A stretch of DNA of 64,000 nucleotides, from NCBI RefSeq assembly GCF_000787575.1, contig NW_012236526.1, forward strand, positions 620,001 through 684,000. The letters run 5' to 3'. Made by a program: the position numbers and the translations under genes. This DNA comes from Acytostelium subglobosum LB1. Lineage: Eukaryota > Evosea > Eumycetozoa > Acytosteliales > Acytosteliaceae. Shown in pieces: positions 40,544 through 52,200 of this stretch (the first letter of the stretch is position 1; each line of letters starts with the position of its first letter). A model generated the notes under the pieces. That model did no database searches. It was not told where the DNA came from and was given only the letters and a program-made list of their open reading frames with translations.

Positions 40544-43500
40544 TTAGTTTGGCTTGGTCGTACCACGACTGCTGCTGCTAGGTTTAAATATCTTCAGTGT
40601 CTCCTTCTTCTTGTCTATGTCTTTTTTCTCTTTGTCTTGGTCCTGGTTCTTGTCAGTCGTCTCCTTCACCTTGTCATCATTGCTAGTGCTGGTACTGGTG
40701 CTGCTACTAGTGCTAGTGCTAGTGCTGGCGGTGTCACTCTCGTGATTGTGATTGTTGTTGCTATTGGTGTTGTTGTCCTTTGAGCCTTCTGCCATTATTG
40801 AGTCGATCTTTGGTGGTGCTGGCTGTTCTTTCTCCTTCTCCTTCTCATTCTCCTTATCCATCTTCATCTCCTTGTCGTCATTCTCCTTAACAATCTCTTT
40901 CTCTTTCTCCTTCTCCTTCTCCTTCTCTTTGACATCGACAGCCTGCGTCAGTGGTTCTGTGGGGCTGTCCACTGATGACTTGGATCGCTTGAGTGACTCT
41001 GTGCTGGAGCCATTCTCAGTGTCAATCTCTGTGTGCTTTCGCTTGTTGGCTTCTTCCTGCTCCTGACCAGCCTTCTCGACATTGTCTGGACGTGGTGAGC
41101 GAGGTGGTGTGGCAGTTGCAGTGATCTTGATGTTCTTGTTGTTGTTGGAGCTGTCATCATCGATCTGCATTGATTGTTCGTCAGTAGTTGATGTTGTGGC
41201 GGTATCTTTAGCGTCTGGCTCCTTCTCGGTTGTTGGAGGTGACTTGGTGGTGGTGGTGGCTGGAGTGCTCTCTGTCGTTGTCTCTTTGCTTGACTCCTTT
41301 GGCTCATCCATCTCGACGACATTGGTTTTTGGTTGTTCCTTCTCTTTCTCCTTCTCTGTCTCCTTCTCCTTCACAATCTCTGGCTCCTTCTCCTTCTCTT
41401 TCACGCTCTCCTTCTCCTTCTCCTCGTTGTCGGTCTCTGTCTCTGTCTCCTTCTCCTTGGATGCAGCGGCATCAGCAATCGCACTCAAGAATGCTGAGGA
41501 GGTGTGATGATGCTTGTCCTCGTGGCTTTCCTTTTCGATAATGTCCTTCTTGGTTCTCTCCACCATCTCCCTGTCTGATCCATTCTCTCTCTCGCTGACT
41601 CTGTTGTCCCTGCTGCTGCCGTGCTTCATCTCGATATCGGCCATCCTCTCGAGTGAATGTCTACCACTACCCTTGTCCATGCTGTTGCTCCTTTCAATGT
41701 CCATTACTGGTGAGGCCTCCCTGTTGAATGCAGGAAGAGCAATTCGCTCTCTAGAGTCTGGCTCAGACTCTCTCATGATGGCGTCCTCATTGTTGCGGGC
41801 TGGCTCCCTCTCTCTGGCTCTGTCCTGGATATCTCTGAACTGGAACAGACCACCTGCGTCAGGTCTGCCGTTGAGACCCATCAGCAGTCCTCGCTCCTCC
41901 ATGTGTCGGGACTCGGGTGACGAGGCTGTGTTCAGATCCTTGCCCTTGTTCCTCTGCGTGCTCTTGTCGGTCAGTGAGATGTTCAGCTCGTTCGACGAAG
42001 GCAGGCTGTGGTTCCTCTCGTCGTGCAGGATCTCGGGCAGGTTGGGAATGCTGCCACTGCTGCTGCTGTTGTTGTTTCCGCCGCTGTTGTTCGAAGTGCC
42101 GTTGCCACTACCAACATCTCTCATGCTTGCGAGGCCACCTGGTCCCATGCTGCCGCCGCCACTGCCAGCCTCTCTCATGTTAGCGAGGCCGCCGCTGCCA
42201 ACTCCAATGCCTCCAATGCTGTTGCCTCCTGTCATGCTGGCGATGCTTCCTCCATTGTTGTTTCCTCCGCCATTGTTTTGTCCGCCAATGTTGCCACTGT
42301 TGCTGCGACCGCCAGGGCCCCTGTTCTCCATCATGCCGCCTGGTGAGTTTGGTTCGATTGTCATTGGGGCCGACTTGTTATCAATGAACTCCTCCTTCTC
42401 TCCATCCTTCTTCTTTTGTTTGTTGCTATTTGGTTTAAGTGGAGGTGGAAGAGAGTTAGTTAGACAACGATCATCATCATCGTGTGCACTTTGGTCCTTA
42501 CCTAATCTGTGATTTAAGGGTGGCTAGTCTTGATTGAATATGCTTGTTCTGTGGATCCAACTCTGCTGCTCTGATGTAGGCATCCAAAGAGTCAGAGTAC
42601 TGGTTGCAGCTCTCGTACAGTGTGCCAAGGTCGTACCACACCTCGCTCAGGTATGGATTGATCCTGATTGCTCTTGTGTATGCATCCAATGCATCGCGAT
42701 ACTGATTGATTTGATAATAGAGAACACCGATGGAGCACCAGAACGATGGGTTGCGACCATCGCGGTAGACCGCCTGCTGATAGGCGTCGTAGGCCTTCTT
42801 GTACTTTTGTTGAATCATGTAGCATCGACCGAGTAGATACCAGGTCTGAGCGTCTGATGGGTCCGAGTCGATGGACTGGATCAAAAAGTTGATGGCCTTC
42901 TCCTGATTGGAGAAGGTTGGGTCGTGGTGATAGAGCCAGCCGAGCTGTTGTAACACCTTAGCATGTGTTGGGTTCTCCTTCAACACTGTCTCGTATGCCT
43001 CCTTTGCTAAAGTATACTGTTTGTTGTTGTTGTTGTTGGTTAGTCAGCTGCCAGCCTGGTTGTCGTGGCGGTTGATTGATCTACATACATCCTTCTGCAA
43101 CTCATATACGTGTCCTATCTGGAACCAAATGTCAGAGGCGGTGAGGGGCTTGGGAGGGTTCTTGAGAAGGCTGTTGAAGCACTCGAGACTCTGTTCGTAC
43201 TTGCCCTGGTGCTTGTAGAGCACGCCCAGACGGAAGTAGATCTCGTTGTTCTTCTCAAAGTTGCTGCTCATCTTGAGCACGGCGGTGAAGGCCTCCTCGG
43301 CGTGCTCGTACGAGCCGTAGCGGTCGTACAGAATGCCAATGCCGTACCAGAGCTTGGGGTCCTTGGGGTTGGGCAGGTGATAGAGTGCGTGCTGGTAGGC
43401 CGTGTAGGCCTTGTGCAGATCGTCCATCATCAGATAGCAGTGGCCCAGATGGCCCCAGGCCTCGCCGTTCTTGTTGTCGATGGTGACGACGCGCTGGAAG

Positions 43501-43775
43501 TAGTCCGAGGCCTTTTGGAACTGCTCCTTGGCGCGAAAGATCGAAGCGATCTGTGACAGCGCCTTGATAGAGTATGGGTTGTGCTTGAGGGCGTTCTCGT
43601 ACGAGAAGATGGCCTTTTCCTGGTCGCCCAGCACCTCGGCCACCGAGCCCAGCTGTGTCCACACCAATTCATTCTGCTCTCTGAACTTCTGTGTGATCAC
43701 TGCCAGATGATCGACATTCCCATTATTGTTGTTGTTATTGTTGTTGACGTTGACACCTGCGCCGCTGTTTGACAT
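40544..43775 (-). CDS. trfA: General transcriptional corepressor Cyc8/Ssn6 homologue TrfA
   Basis: Three exons, 43775-43089, 43016-42502 and 42425-40544, giving 1027 residues. Residues about 37-395 hold ten TPR units whose sequence is highly specific for Cyc8/Ssn6, for example WTQLGSVAEVLGDQEKAI, AWGHLGHCYLMMDDLHKAY, KLWYGIGILYDRYGSYEHAEEAF, NEIYFRLGVLYKHQGKY, HAKVLQQLGWLY and FWCSIGVLYYQINQYRDALDAYTRAI. The rest is low complexity: Gly/Asn-rich, then Arg/Asp/Glu-rich, then a long Lys-Glu repeat region, ending in a Ser/Thr-rich and Lys-rich tail. The protein bridges DNA-bound repressors and Tup1 in the nucleus. The last intron falls exactly at the TPR/low-complexity boundary. Confidence 0.95.
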
Positions 43776-45050
43776 GTTGTGTGTTTTGTTGGCGACTCTG
43801 TCGTAGTATTTCCCTTTGATGTCTAATTGATTGATTGTTTATTCGTTTGGATGAATGACTACGGAATGATTGATTGATTGAGTCAATGATACTACTATTC
43901 TATGTTGTTTGAAGAATGTGAAGTAGTAGGAGTGTCAATGAATGTTTGGCTCACTCACTTTATCTATCACTATCACTATCACTATCACCCTATCTCTCTC
44001 TGTCACAAGTTAGTTATGTTATACGGGTGTGGTGTGTAGGATGTGTGTGAATGTATAAGAGGGGTGAATGATGAATTGAGTTGTGTCGATCGGTGTGTTA
44101 GTGTAAATGGTAGAGTGGTGTGTGTGAGTGCAGTAAGCATTATGATGATGATGAGGTGTGTGGCTGACCAGAACCGAGCTGAGCCTTTGCTATGATAATT
44201 GTTTGTTCTACCCCCACCCACACTAACCACGCGTCTAACATTATTAGTGGTGGGGGTGAAATGGGCGGGGTGTGGTGGGTGTCTCTCTCTGACGATGAGG
44301 AGTTTTGTGTGTGTTTGAATTTATGTGTATGTATGCGTATGCTTTGTCTGCATGGTAATGCTCTGTCTGTCCTGGCCTTGTTGTCTTTGTCTTGCTCCTC
44401 CTAGGAAGGTATGACATGACAACTTCAAGTAAGTACTTACTTGTGACAATATCAATATGGTTTGAGATAAAGGATGGTGGAATTATAGATTGATTGTTTG
44501 ATTGATTGACTGATTGAATCTGATCAGATTCCTCATGAATAGGATTGATATATATAGACTGATGATTGATTGAATGATTGATGATGTGTTATTGAATGGA
44601 ATGATGATCAGGTCTATCTATGTATCTGAGTCTATGTATTATATGTATCTATCTATCTATCTATGTATAATTAGCAAAGGAGAGACTAACAACTAACTAA
44701 AAGATAATGTTGGGTTGTTGTTGTGTGGGTTCCAATCAACACTCACACACGAGAAGTATGAACAGTCACCCATCATCCACACCCCCCTCCTAATGGATAA
44801 TAATAATCTTTGGAACTTCAATTATGGAATCAACAATAATTAACAATTACATCTAGATAATCACAAGTAATATTTATTTATAATTTAAATATTAATTACT
44901 TCATTATTATTGTCTTATTCCAACATTGATGACAAACCTAGATAAACCCATAAATTCAAATTATTTTGATCACTCAAACAAAGGGCGCGAAATATTCAAA
45001 GTTGAATTAGATTCATGTGATAGTTCATTGATTGAACGATTATTGACATA
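43776..45050. other. Divergent promoter region with an inverted repeat
   Basis: 1.3 kb between trfA and ORC3, no gene. It contains an imperfect inverted repeat of C-rich and G-rich arms at 44211-44226 and 44244-44256, TATC and TTGA microsatellites, and strongly AT-rich DNA just before ORC3. Confidence 0.5.
44211..44256. repeat. G/C-rich inverted repeat
   Basis: Left arm CCCCCACCCACACTAA and right arm TTAGTGGTGGGGG are complementary except for three unpaired bases in the left arm, with a 17-base spacer. It sits about 0.44 kb upstream of trfA and 0.8 kb upstream of ORC3. It could be a hairpin or paired binding sites for a factor that likes G runs. Confidence 0.5.
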
Positions 45051-48000
45051 ATGAAAGGTACAAAGGAGGTAAATAATAGTAATAATAATAATAATAGTAA
45101 TAGTATATTGTCAATAGCTCCAAGAAAGAAGAAAAGAACAGAGGAACCTCCTCCTCCTACACAGGACATCACCATTAGACTCACTGAGATGGCCATCGCC
45201 ACCACCAAGAAGAAGGTAGGTCGACCAAAGCAAGCAAGCAAGCAACAGGCAACAACAGTGACGACATAAACTTATAAACAAACACAGACACAGACAACCC
45301 CAAAGAAGAAGAGGCAATCATTATTATCATCGGCAGCAGCAGAGGCAAAAGCAGCGGCAGCAGAAGCAGCAACAAAGGAGAGGCTAATATGTTGCAAGTG
45401 CTTGACTGAATATGATAGTCAACATTCTATAAAGTTGAAGGATAACCCATTGGTACGTTGCGAGAACTGCCAGAGATGGTGCCACATTCAACGGTGTGGC
45501 TCGAGAGACAGAGCCTCCAAATCGTTCTTCTGTTCGCACTGTCAGCGCTTGAAGAACCTCGCCGAGAAGGGCTCGCTCAGTCGCCAGCTCCGAGAGTTGA
45601 CCATCAGCTCCAAGAAGTCACTGGAGGCAAGGCTCAAGACCAAGCTCGTTGAGAAGCCCCCAGGCTTTGATGACGACGACGACGACGACGGCAGGCCCAT
45701 CTATCGCCAGCCTGGCAAGGAGGATGGGGACTACATCCCGCGCTCCTCAGACGACCCCGTTGACACCTATCTCACCGAGTCAGACTTCACATATGCAATG
45801 GCAACTGTATGTTTGTTTGTTTGATTACACCACCTACGCACGTGCACGGCTACTCTAACGCTACGCCACTCCTTGTCTACAACAGAAACTATCGCCGACA
45901 TACCCAGCCAAACGACAGGATGGGGACCCAACATTTGAGCACTTGAACCAGTTTATCGGCTTGGACAAAGAGAGTAGCGAGCAGGTGATAAGGTCTCGAT
46001 ATCACGCATTCATTCAGTACACAGAGTCCGAGTCGTTGAAGGCACTGGACAACTACACGGTCAACTCAAACATGCCCAAGATGAAGGAGATTGTCAACTT
46101 TATCGAAAAGGCCTATCCGCCCCAGACCGTGCTGGAGACGCGCATGCACCTGGCGAAGCGGACACCAATCAATCTGCAGACGATGCAGCCCAGCATGCCC
46201 ACCGTGCTCCTGTACACTGGCACGTCTATCCCAAACATCGTCCACATGTTCCAATTGGTCGGCCTGGGGCTGGCCGGGCGCAAAGAGAACAGCATGCAGA
46301 CTTTGCTGCCGCTGGACCCAAGCTACTCGCTGCCACCCATCGCCACATTGAGCAGCGAGCACTGTTCCTCATTGCGATCGGCGATCACAGCCATTTGCCA
46401 ACAGTACATTCAGTCGTCGACCAAGTACGCTCGCGATCTGGACGCCAGCTCGGCACAGGACAGCGTACTACAGAGTGAATCACAACTGGAGGAGTCTGAC
46501 GTCATTGACCAGAGTGTCGAGGGCACACAGAACACGCAGCCAACCCAGACGACGGGCGGAGGCAAGGCGGCACCAAAGGGTACTCGAACCACCAGCATCG
46601 CAGAGATTGAGAGGTGGTACATGCACACACATCACCTCCCATTGATGCAGCGAACGATCGATGCGTTCGTCAAGAAGACACCACCAGGCGAGCTGACCAC
46701 TGACAAGCTCGACAGCCTGACCGTGTCCAGGGTGACGCCCATGGTCATCATCGAGAACTTTGAAGCATGGGACGCATCAATCATTCAAGATCTATTATAC
46801 TTACTACAGTATGTTGTTCATTCACGTGTCTGCGGCTGGCTAACTAACAATCAATCAATCACGCACACGACACAGCTCATATAGAAGCACTGTACCATTC
46901 GCAGTCATATTGTCAGTGTCAACCACATCGGATACAGTTCACACGATGCTCACTCATTCGATCACTTCTCTGCTCTCGATCAGATCGATCGCGCTACACT
47001 CACAGAACTACTTGTTTGAACGATTTGTCCACGACACGTTTGTGGAGGACGGACTGATATCGTTTGGACCCAAGGTGTACCGCACGCTCTATGAGAGCTT
47101 CAAGAACAGTCACCTGTCCATGGAGGTGCTACAGCGCCAGTTCCGGTACGCCATCAAACTGCACTTCTTCTACAACAACCTCAGCTTCCTCTGCACGGAC
47201 AACCTGCAGCTGGCCGACCACGAGTTTGGCTCCTACATTCTCAATAGCCATCGCAGAGCCAACTTGGTGTACGGCGGTGCCATTAGCGAGGGCGACATGC
47301 CAGATGTAAAGATAGTTGGCAAGCCCAGCCCATTCATATCGAAGGACATTGACAATGACAATGTGGACGAGGAGCTCAGCGAAGTCGAGGACAAGTGTTC
47401 CGAGGCGAGTCCAGACTGGGAGAACGCAGAGATCCTCAAAAATTCGAGCTATGTGTCCAGCGATGACACCGACGCATCACTCAACTCAGATGGAACAGAG
47501 TCAGAGGACGACGATCAGTTCAATCTAAGCATCAGCTTCTACGACCGCCTGACCGTCACTGAGGCCATGCGACCACCAATAAGCGATCACGAGGTACCCG
47601 CCAGCGACTACCGGTTGGACAATCTGCAGACCGATCACATCGTCGCCATCAAGAACGTTGCGTCCGTGCAGAACTTTATTGCGACCATGGTGCCAAAGAA
47701 GGAAAGGGCGTGGCTGGACAACAACATTCACATGCGTGATGTTATACTCTCAATGATGTACAACTTCTTTGGATTCCGGTTCATCCGCTCAACAATCCTA
47801 CGTTCCTATCACGCCATCCTCCAGCTGGTCTTCCCCAGCATCCAATTCAGCGAGATACTCTACAAAGTGGCCATCGAGGATTACAACCAGTTTGCATACC
47901 TCAAGCAAGAGTTGAAGAAGTAAGTACTCTCTTCCACTCCCATTCCATTTCAATCAATCAATCACTAACTCACCATCATCGTTCAATCAATCAATCAATC

Positions 48001-49007
48001 AAACAATCAGGGAGGATATGATCAATGGAATTGTAAATGTTGTACAGGGTTGGATAGAGAGACTTACATTGTTGACAGACTTGTCAAACTATCCACAACG
48101 ATTCCGTCGTCTGGATGATCACATTCCAGCCAACCAGAAGTCTAAGCCTCATGCCAAGATCAACACCTACTTAAAGACATGTCGCGACATCATCCATAAA
48201 TTCAAGAACCCAGGTTCGGACGATGAGGAGTCTGCTGCCAGGATCAAACATTCAAACAAGTCTAAACAAATGATGTAGGTTATTACGATCAATCACTCAA
48301 CCAATCTCTTCGACTCATTCACACGTCAACAAACTACAGGGAGGACTTGAAGAGAGCGAGACAAAAGAAGAATCCATATGATGGAGCGCAGATATTGCTA
48401 CTTGACCTGTTGGATAAGTTCATGTTGTATGTATTGTATTGTATTGTATTGATTGAGTGTCAAGGCCACACTGACTCACTCTCACCAATCATTGGCTCGT
48501 AGTGACTTTATCGCATTCGATATGGCCAAGCTTCCAATCAACGAGATATTCTATTGCAATGAAGGAGATATGGTACATCAGAAGTACAACATCAGATTCA
48601 CGATGGACATTAGACGAGAGATGTTGCGCTCATCAGAGATACTCAAATGTGTCGACCAACAATGCTGTGGTCTCAAACAAAACAATCAACAATCAGCCAC
48701 CAACGAGGATATCACCATCATGTAAGTATTGATGATTGATTGGATATCTCACCAACACTACTGACCTACCATCCATCAATCCATCCATCCATTCATCCAC
48801 AGGTTCTCATTATACTCTGAGTTTGGTAGATTCATCAATCTACACGATTGGCTCACATCATTCTGCATGTTATTCAATGGAACTGGAGAGCATTCTCCAG
48901 AGCTACAGGCAAGGTTCGCTTCGTCATTGGACATTCTTCAATTCCTTGGCTTGATACAGAGGACCAACAGACGAACTGATCATGTCATTAAAGTGCACTG
49001 CTACTGA
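45051..49007 (+). CDS. orcC: Origin recognition complex subunit 3 with N-terminal PHD-like zinc finger
   Basis: Eight exons: 45051-45215, 45294-45806, 45886-46808, 46876-47919, 48011-48274, 48340-48426, 48503-48721 and 48803-49007, giving 1139 residues (human ORC3 is about 711). ORC3 features are PTVLLYTGTSIPN near residue 331, the ENFEAWDASIIQDLLYLLHSYRS segment, FAVILSVSTTSDTVH, ITSLLSIRSI, KLHFFYNNLSFLC, and a C-terminal winged-helix end (ARFASSLDILQFLGLIQRTNRRTDHV). Exons 1-2 add about 226 residues with a Lys/Ala-rich stretch and a Cys/His cluster at about 88-137 (CCKC, VRCENCQRWCHI, FFCSHC), which looks like a PHD/zinc finger. Exon 3 has no usable ATG of its own before conserved ORC3 sequence, and exons 2 and 3 join in phase 0, so one gene is favoured. 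An acidic insert lies in the middle. ORC3 helps ORC bind replication origins. Confidence 0.88.
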
Positions 49008-49257: not shown

Positions 49258-52200
49258 ATGAAAGATAATGACAAAAGACACATGATCAATCAAGTGTTCC
49301 ACAATCAGTTGTTGTGCCGATACATTCTCCAACATGTCAGTGGCATATATAGTCGGTTGAACAAGTCAACGATCAAAGGAGGAGTGTTGCACTCCAGTGG
49401 TGATCTGATGATGATGCTCAAGTTCAATGCCATATCGATGTTCATTGAATCATTCGACAGTGTTGCCAACAACTACCCTTACAACACAACATTGTTGAAG
49501 AAGTGTGCCGCCCAATACAACAACACCAGAGCATTCAATCATCTGATCAAACATCCAAACATCATCATCGATCAGACCGTGTTCAAGTTGGAACATGTCT
49601 GTCAACATGGCAACATTGACATTCTTCAATCATACATCGATGCCACATCATGTTACTCAACACACTGCATAGACTTTGTTGAATGCATTCCTCTTGCAAT
49701 CGACAATGGCAACGAACACTTTGTTCGTCTGTTGCTCCAACGCCTCTCAGTGCGAGGTAGTGTTCCTCGAGACAATACTGAAATCAGTGAAGGAGATAAC
49801 TCTGATAATGAGAGGTACGACGAAGCGATTAAACGTCTCAATAAGTACAAGTTCAAGTGTCATGGTATCAGCATTGATGTGCTCCGTGTGCTTAACGAGG
49901 AGTTCAGCTGCCTGTTCGTGTTTGGCAACATATGGAGCGATGTCCTCGCTCGCTCAGCCAAGTTCGACATGGTCGACAGTGTCCAATACATCTTGAGCAA
50001 CCTCGGGCAGAGAATGAAGAATGTTCATCCCTACTACTTTGGCCCATTCATGAAACAGGTTGCCAAGGCCGGCAACGTTGAGCTCTTTCGCATGTTCACT
50101 GAGTGCCATCACTGCGATGCGTATTTCAGGGCGAGCAACGTCAAAGACATCATCATCAAGATGGCCGCAGAGTATGGGCAAGAGGCATTGGTCCTTCAGC
50201 TCTACGACCTGTGCATTGTCAGGGGTGTGTACCCGATGCCCGAGAGTGCCTTCGCTCCCTATTTGGAGGGCCCTCCACATGCCAAGCGTCTTCGCATCAC
50301 ACCACTGGCAGCCATTCTCAACGATGACCTTATGTATATTGATGCAATGCTGTCCAGCATCAATTCGCTCGATCTCAAGATGTGTCGGAGCATGTCCACC
50401 TCGATAGCGATGCTGATCACCAGCCAGCGATCGCCCGCACCGGTGTTTGATGGTCAATCACTCTCAAACATGGTGTTGGCCATTAACAAGCCTGGCAGCA
50501 ACATCACCGTTGACTTGGCATGCAAGTTCATCGATCACTGCACATTCAACGAACATGACGAATTCAAGGTATGGATTGCCAAGAAGTCTGCGTTGGAGGA
50601 GGCGGCAGGCTTCTCTGCCGCTTTGATGGCAAGGATATACAGGCTGCTCAATGACTTTTATGATGAAGGCCTGTTCATGGCCAAGGCATTGGCGAGCAGG
50701 TGTCGCGAGACTATAGAATACGGAACAAAGAACAAGCTCAAATTGGTCAAGCTAGACGCATTCAAGTTCTTTGAGAAGGCATCGATGGATGATGTACGCT
50801 TTGTGTCCAAACTCCTGGACTCCAAAATTATGACGGATCCTGTGATCTGTGAGTGGGCCGTACTTAATCAATCATCAGAGGTGTTTGAGTACATCATCAA
50901 TCTGTTCACAATGGATGAGTTGAAGACCAATCTACAGGATATTGTGGAGTTTGCTATGATATATGGCAATCCTCAACACATTCAATCACTTCAACGTCAC
51001 TTTGGGGTCCAACATGATCTCTATATTGGGCTAAGTCTTGAGACACTTGAGAGCATAGTCTCTGACAATCACTATTCATCACTGGAATTCCACTTCAACT
51101 CAACAGCATTCAACAAACAAACAAACAAACATCAATTGAGAACACTCCACAGCATCCTCAACAAAGCATATCAAGTTGGATCAACTCGATTGATGAAACT
51201 GTGCATCAATCACATCGACTCACTCAATCAACCGGATGAAAGTAATGAAGGTGACGAGGAAGATTATGAAGAAGAAGATGCAGAATATGATGATGATGAT
51301 GACAATGATGATGAGGACTGTGAGTATGTATCGATCCCGGTATCAAGCAACCTCCATCAATCAATGACTAACAATGTCATTCACTCGTAGCCATCCAGTT
51401 CCAGAGTTGGATCAAGCGTTCCACTTGGTGATTGGTGATGCCAGGTTAGCAACAATGATCATGCGACAGATTGGAATGATTCACTCATCATTGGGCATTG
51501 ATTTGGACAGATTGATCAAAGGATCAACATTATTGGCCAACAACAATCTTCTTCATTACATCAGGTTTGGTGCCACTGAATACTTCATCAAATCATACTA
51601 CACCATCAAAGATCAATATCAATACCCTCACAACACAACATTGTTATCAGAGGCATTTGCCAATTGTAACACACGTGCATTGGTTGCACTGCTTGACAAC
51701 CCCAACATGTCCCTTCCTACGGATCGTGTGGCATTGGAGAACATCCTCCGAGGCATATCCAGATGCCCACCTCCTTATTGGGAGTGGATATTTGAACAAT
51801 ACCTAAAGATCGTCTGGCCGACTGACACTCCATTTGTGATGACCGAGGACTTCTTCCTTTCGGTACACCATGTTGCATTCCTTCAAAAGCTCATTCAGAT
51901 GGGCTTCAGTCTCGATCGAACCGACGACTACAAAATCATTTACGATCGGTTGGCCAATAGTTGGTTCACCAAACCGTGGGCATTGGAAACCGTACAGTTC
52001 TTGCATGATCACTCACTTCTAGAAAAGTCGTTTCAGAAAGGCTTGTTGTACAGGGCGATCGAACATAACGTCCTGGATGTCTTTGGCCACATCATCAGCA
52101 TCAATCCAGAGTTTCAACAATTGGATGCTTGGATTGATTTGAAGCGAGGACTGTTGGATCATTGTTGCAAGTTTGGACGTGCCAACCATCTGGACATATT

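Follow-up and report, generated by a model that had tools for sequence, protein, structure and literature searches.

Gene structure and ORC3 identity

The window, a 64,000-nucleotide stretch of Acytostelium subglobosum LB1 DNA, carries at 45051-49007 on the forward strand a predicted ORC3 gene, whose eight exons splice into a single frame of 1,141 amino acids closed by a stop codon at 49005-49007. All seven introns are of the GT-AG type and measure 65-91 nt. The first-pass annotation had set the locus at 45051-47300; its start region holds, while the span turns out to be the 5' half of a gene that continues to 49007. The features, as predicted, are:

45051..45215, + strand: exon 1, residues 1-55, with ATG, Asn-run and Lys-rich stretches (gene model, coding score)
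45216..45287, + strand: intron 1, 72 nt, GTAGGT...ACACAG (gene model)
45288..45806, + strand: exon 2, residues 56-228, with basic tail, finger, Asp-run linker and probable start of the ORC3 N-terminus
45390..45542, + strand: PHD-like finger, residues 90-140, with C90/C91, C93, C113, C116, W119, H121, C125, C137 and C140
45777..45800, + strand: ESDFTYAM, residues 219-226, possible counterpart of the ORC2-packing strand (by eye, suggestive)
45807..45885, + strand: intron 2, 79 nt, GTATGT...CAACAG, phase 0 (gene model)
45886..46808, + strand: exon 3, ORC3 (gene model, Pfam, ORC3_N genome search)
46876..47919, + strand: exon 4, ORC3 (gene model, Pfam, ORC3_N genome search, PDB matches)
48011..48274, + strand: exon 5, ORC3 (gene model)
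48340..48426, + strand: exon 6, ORC3 (gene model)
48503..48721, + strand: exon 7, ORC3, where the winged helix begins (gene model, Pfam)
48803..49007, + strand: exon 8, ORC3 winged helix and stop (gene model, Pfam, PDB matches)

The acceptor of intron 1 has an alternative AG six bases further on, at 45293, that also keeps the frame. Read on into intron 1 (45207-45242), exon 1 gives KKKVGRPKQ in frame and then a stop; we take this to be an AT-hook-like core, and retention of the intron would yield a short basic peptide. The divergent neighbour at 43044-43838 on the reverse strand encodes a TPR protein (TPR_1, 1.5e-36), presumably resembling the Cyc8/Ssn6 corepressor, and the downstream neighbour at 49261-51387 a 709-aa protein with weak ankyrin matches, below cut-off.

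From residue 226 onward the predicted protein is ORC3. Pfam places ORC3_N (PF07034) at residues 256-641 with 106.5 bits (gathering threshold 25; E 2.4e-30) and ORC_WH_C (PF18137) at residues 1037-1138 with 67.7 bits (gathering threshold 26.4; E 1.5e-18). Compared with the PDB, this part of the protein (226 to the end) gave four sequences at E <=0.001, all four of them ORC3, the best (7.9e-23) being chain 4xgc_C, which we take to be the Drosophila ORC3 chain. In the whole genome (30.7 Mb, 56 contigs) an ORC3_N search recovered no second ORC3 copy, both matches being exons of this same gene. No relatives were found among viral contigs (queried with exons 2 and 4) or GTDB genome contigs (queried with exon 4).

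The region between the AAA-like domain and the winged helix is present and long, with no Pfam family match. Residues 690-780 (exon 4) are strongly acidic (net charge -22) and lie where other ORC3s have their Orc6-binding insert. In the part of PMC3791464 available to us, an ORC3 insert in the AAA-like/winged-helix interval binds Orc6 in other ORC3s, and the D. discoideum and P. pallidum accessions given there belong to the Orc6 alignment.

A probable fusion of finger and ORC3 in one gene

The Cys/His cluster (CCKC, CENCQRWCH, CSHC) that had been ascribed to exons 1 and 2 is indeed there, at residues 90-140, and the spliced model reproduces the phase-0 join of these exons to exon 3 at 45806/45886. 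Exon 3 likewise has no start of its own, as had been claimed: no Met precedes the ORC3_N match at residue 256, and the first Met of the exon is M291. From the finger to ORC3 the reading is free of stops and interrupted solely by the 79-nt intron. Introns 1 and 2 (72 and 79 nt; donors GTAGGT and GTATGT) resemble the five within ORC3 and fall in the same size class. The proposal of a true ORC3 with an N-terminal Cys-rich finger in a single gene is thus borne out at the level of the prediction by the continuous frame and the ORC3_N and ORC_WH_C matches, and we regard the fusion of finger and ORC3 in one gene as very probable.

Codon usage, scored with a table trained on nine long open reading frames elsewhere in the window, provided a soft test of this model. 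Taken as wholes, exons 1 and 2 score 0.159 and 0.185 bits per codon in the predicted frame, against at most -0.355 in the other forward frames and at most -0.054 in the reverse ones (for exon 1, the other forward frames give -0.687 and -1.414). Within exon 2 the signal is uneven. It is strong after the finger (0.357) and weak over it (0.059), yet there still the highest of the three forward frames; in the 29 codons before the finger, the predicted frame scores 0.009 and another frame 0.212. The last exon is itself ambiguous (-0.014 vs 0.026) despite its clear winged-helix homology.

An error of the gene model or of the assembly, in which exons 1 and 2 would be a separate PHD-like gene misjoined to ORC3, could draw on this weak score over the finger and the better frame before it, and on a gene model that is known from sequence alone. 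We consider such an error very improbable: the frame is continuous, the introns are consensus, a terminator and a promoter would probably be hard to fit into 79 nt, and exon 2 matches a single site in the genome, namely itself at the ORC3 locus.

Somewhat less remote, though still improbable, is that the locus makes two products through alternative splicing or alternative starts, one a small protein with the finger, terminated within intron 2, the other an ORC3 whose first residue is M226. Exon 2 does read open for five codons (VCLFV) into intron 2, up to a stop at 45822-45824, and an in-frame ATG (M226, at 45798), absent from the first-pass annotation, sits at its extreme 3' end. Set against this, the exons lie 79 nt apart and join in phase 0 at consensus sites, and a start at M226 would lose residues 219-225, a possible ORC2-packing strand that is suggestive by eye.

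Potential ligands and family of the finger

Residues 90-140 hold nine Cys, three His and one Trp. Eight of these residues (C90 or C91, C93, C113, C116, H121, C125, C137 and C140) are potential zinc ligands that follow each other in PHD order, and the aromatic residues of a PHD finger are in place too, W119 preceding the His, and F135 preceding C137, by two positions. The spacing differs from that of the C4HC3 PHD in one respect, H-x3-C here replacing H-x2-C.

The zinc-finger profile search proposed in the first-pass annotation produced weak matches to PHD and to Zn_ribbon_9, neither over its Pfam cut-off: PHD (PF00628, gathering threshold 24) reached 10.3 bits with exon 2 and 12.8 with the finger, and Zn_ribbon_9 (PF02591, gathering threshold 29.1), the finger's top Pfam match, 22.2 bits (E 1.6e-4). 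The Pfam families YokU (13.2 bits against a cut-off of 27) and FYVE_2 (12.0 against 27.2) also stayed under their cut-offs, and NCBIfam gave no match for exon 2 or the finger. A phmmer search of the PDB with exon 2 listed 20 chains at E <=10, the best at E 0.2; we take 15 of these 20 to be PHD-carrying (EBS, SHORT LIFE, PHF23, PHF13, SHPRH, Set3, MLL5, KMT2D, BPTF and CXXC1), the remainder comprising two HORMA proteins and three unrelated chains. Two single-sequence AlphaFold models, made without relatives, one of exon 2 (173 aa) and the other of the 68-aa finger, had mean pLDDT of 52 and 67 and disagree in fold, and Foldseek returned one match, at E 8, for the low-confidence exon 2 model.

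These data leave room for a zinc module of another kind, a C4 zinc ribbon or an unclassified treble-clef or cross-brace fold, that would serve ORC-internal protein contacts or bind DNA and not histones. The ranking of Zn_ribbon_9 above a PHD profile that stays under its cut-off, the H-x3-C spacing and the basic character of the finger all favour it. Zn_ribbon_9, however, is itself under its threshold, and its best-matching segment spans no more than residues 93-119; this reading leaves H121, C125, C137 and C140 unexplained, yet these occupy PHD places. We hold a module of another kind to be possible but doubtful.

The term "PHD-like" of the first-pass annotation is therefore kept with a reservation. 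Ligand order, Trp and the PHD chains found by phmmer (E >=0.2) speak for it, whereas the spacing, the higher score of Zn_ribbon_9 and the lack of a match over any curated cut-off speak against it; we write PHD-like and not PHD because no curated cut-off was reached and the spacing is H-x3-C. The finger is probably a zinc-binding module, PHD-like with a private spacing, and its assignment to the PHD type is plausible, with the balance moderately in favour. Zinc binding and a PHD-type fold are inferred, as is the tethering discussed below.

In-genome controls

To compare the finger with those of its own genome we built two PHD profiles. A six-frame search found 32 PHD places, 21 of them over cut-off; 30 of the 32 were cut out, 29 were translated, 21 (at least 41 aa, no stop) entered a broad profile and eight a subset profile. 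The same kind of search gave 73 RING places; of the 30 loci extracted from these, 26 received a score and four were left aside as partial or containing a stop. One RING locus (L060) is the same place as a PHD locus (L018) and so part of the training set of the broad profile.

With the broad 21-PHD profile the finger scored 9.6 bits, a value reached by 4/5000 full shuffles and 4/5000 shuffles with Cys and His fixed, and in a repeat by 0/5000 and 3/5000, respectively. No fewer than eight of the 26 RINGs have higher scores, seven of them apart from L060, and the best of these has 14.0 bits. Since so many RINGs exceed the finger, the broad profile does not discriminate, and we ruled it out as discriminating evidence. 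The subset profile, made from eight of the genome's fingers (seven of the C-x-C type) picked after seeing the ORC3 finger, gave 13.8 bits, which 2/5000 full and 1/5000 Cys/His-fixed shuffles reached, counts that are optimistic because of this choice. None of the 26 RINGs attained this score (best 11.4), and the alignment matched every ligand position with one residue inserted after the His. A RING finger was rejected, the finger scoring -5.4 bits on the same-genome RING profile.

We also searched for the ligands as patterns. The eight-ligand pattern, written after seeing the sequence, was run over 589,210 six-frame residues from the window and the PHD, RING and ORC loci, a non-random set, where its sole hits were ORC3 and four distinct PHD fingers over the Pfam cut-off (L006, L007, L012 and L019). 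The short core C-x2-C-x2-W-x-H occurs at 174 places in the genome at the DNA level against 55 for a reversed control pattern; on these counts it carries little alone and was dropped as evidence.

Among known fingers, the closest likeness is to the C-x-C PHDs, a type that we take to include plant EBS, MLL5 and yeast Set3 and that is represented in this genome by L006, L007, L012 and L024. The ORC3 finger shares with them the C-x-C start and the C-x2-C-x2-W-x-H core and, with the complete ones, the aromatic residue before the last C-x2-C. It departs from them in a first loop seven to eight residues longer, in H-x3-C and in remaining under the Pfam cut-off.

ORC1 and the absence of BAH matches

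We then looked at the other replication proteins. The two CDC6/ORC1-type loci of the genome separate cleanly: one (L037) is ORC1, matching ORC1 chain 5uj7_A at 6.3e-59, and the other (L036) is CDC6, its top match being a CDC6 chain at 2.2e-27. ORC2 is present as well. For D. discoideum, the part of PMC3297607 at hand lists all six ORC proteins and CDC6.

The N-terminal tail of ORC1 (L037:4417-5307) is 297 residues long, 38% Asp/Glu with long acidic runs, and contains no Cys. Pfam found neither BAH nor PHD in it at E <=1. Across the genome, an exon-by-exon six-frame search gave 0 BAH matches at E <=1, though a BAH split by introns could escape it; six-frame searches of the same genome yield 32 PHD and 73 RING places. 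The genome also has at least 207 matches to FNIP repeats, which mark dictyostelids. The absence of BAH possibly reflects a loss from the genome or an artefact of exon splitting, and detection of BAH in eukaryotic ORC1 is patchy in any case, perhaps from weak profile sensitivity (PMC7058166, in the part available). As predicted here, ORC1 lacks a detectable BAH or PHD, and a missed 5' exon could exist. The acidic, Cys-free ORC1 tail with no detectable BAH or PHD, and the lack of BAH in the six-frame genome search, are additions to the first-pass annotation.

Proposed position of the finger in ORC

In human ORC, the RecA-like sheet of ORC2 is extended by a strand from ORC3 residues 10-14, and residues 42-86 of ORC3 form, in the open state, a long helix (PMC7467728, in the part available). 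The N-termini read CFVFK in human and CFVYK in fly, the Phe preceding the helix Trp by 40 and 45 residues. In our protein, F222 of the ESDFTYAM stretch sits 48 residues before the position that we matched by eye to this Trp. Run through phmmer, the 199-aa N-terminal region of ORC3 brought up no ORC3; its hits were four PPR matches summed over repeats, plus two unrelated chains with weak scores, so the strand at residues 219-226 stays an argument by eye, suggestive only of a native ORC3 N-terminus at the end of exon 2. If right, it would tie exon 2 to ORC3 and put the finger on the ORC2/ORC3 side.

With human and Drosophila ORC3 the protein shares ORC3_N, the winged helix and the sequence match; unlike it, those proteins start about ten residues before the ORC2-packing strand, with no finger there. 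It would be an ORC3 with about 218 extra N-terminal residues followed by an ordinary ORC3. The extension would open with a Lys-rich tail, which likely serves as a nuclear signal, and continue with a PHD-like zinc finger of the cross-brace type and a flexible linker. The finger would hang from the ORC2/ORC3 side of the complex and help anchor ORC to chromatin, by way of the H3 tail or of DNA.

Candidate functions of the finger

The C-x-C PHD class includes readers of H3K4me3. In the phmmer alignment, W119 and Y97 fall on a Trp and a Tyr of EBS that we take to be cage residues. The mark occurs in D. discoideum, but in cells lacking Set1, where all H3K4 methylation is gone, cell-cycle progression is unaffected (PMC13186565, in the part available), which makes an essential link between H3K4 methylation and ORC unlikely in that species. 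The net charge of the finger (+4 over residues 90-140) is joint third most positive of the 22 fingers compared and is a better match for DNA than for a basic histone tail. The H-x3-C spacing, for its part, may disturb a histone-binding site. Together with the Set1 result, the basic charge and the spacing make contact with DNA or protein a close rival to histone reading.

Domain rearrangements of this sort have a precedent, the ORC1 of Chloroplastida, including Arabidopsis, carrying an inserted PHD (PMC7058166). As in plant ORC1, domain rearrangement within a single lineage would have brought a PHD-type reader onto an ORC subunit; the plant case differs in that our module lies at the N-terminus of ORC3 and is no more than PHD-like in sequence. 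The BAH of metazoan and yeast ORC1 likewise binds chromatin from the N-terminus of an ORC subunit, a role that is putative here, and it has another fold and sits on another subunit, in contrast to a genome with no six-frame BAH match. The sections of PMC7058166 covered here mention PHD in ORC1 and none in ORC3, and among the titles, abstract openings and passages covered by a literature search, no PHD or zinc finger in ORC3 is described.

In our judgement there is an even chance that this is one gene for an ORC3 whose PHD-like finger helps hold ORC on chromatin, in a lineage with no recognisable reader on ORC1. As to role, the finger most likely serves on ORC3 as a tether to chromatin or DNA that is specific to this lineage. 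The lack of a detectable BAH or PHD in ORC1 fits a further idea, the transfer of the reader to ORC3: in dictyostelids a PHD-derived finger would have replaced a lost ORC1 BAH, moving the nucleosome contact to the ORC2/ORC3 half. We think this stronger version unlikely, if worth stating.

In genomes whose origins are not sequence-specific, the choice of origins is an open question, and work on chromatin reading by ORC has dealt with ORC1. A zinc finger on ORC3 beside an ORC1 with no recognisable reader would offer, in a group of amoebae with good genetics, a natural way to ask if the position of the reader matters. ORC would also have acquired a PHD-like module twice, independently, the earlier known case being the ORC1 of green plants.
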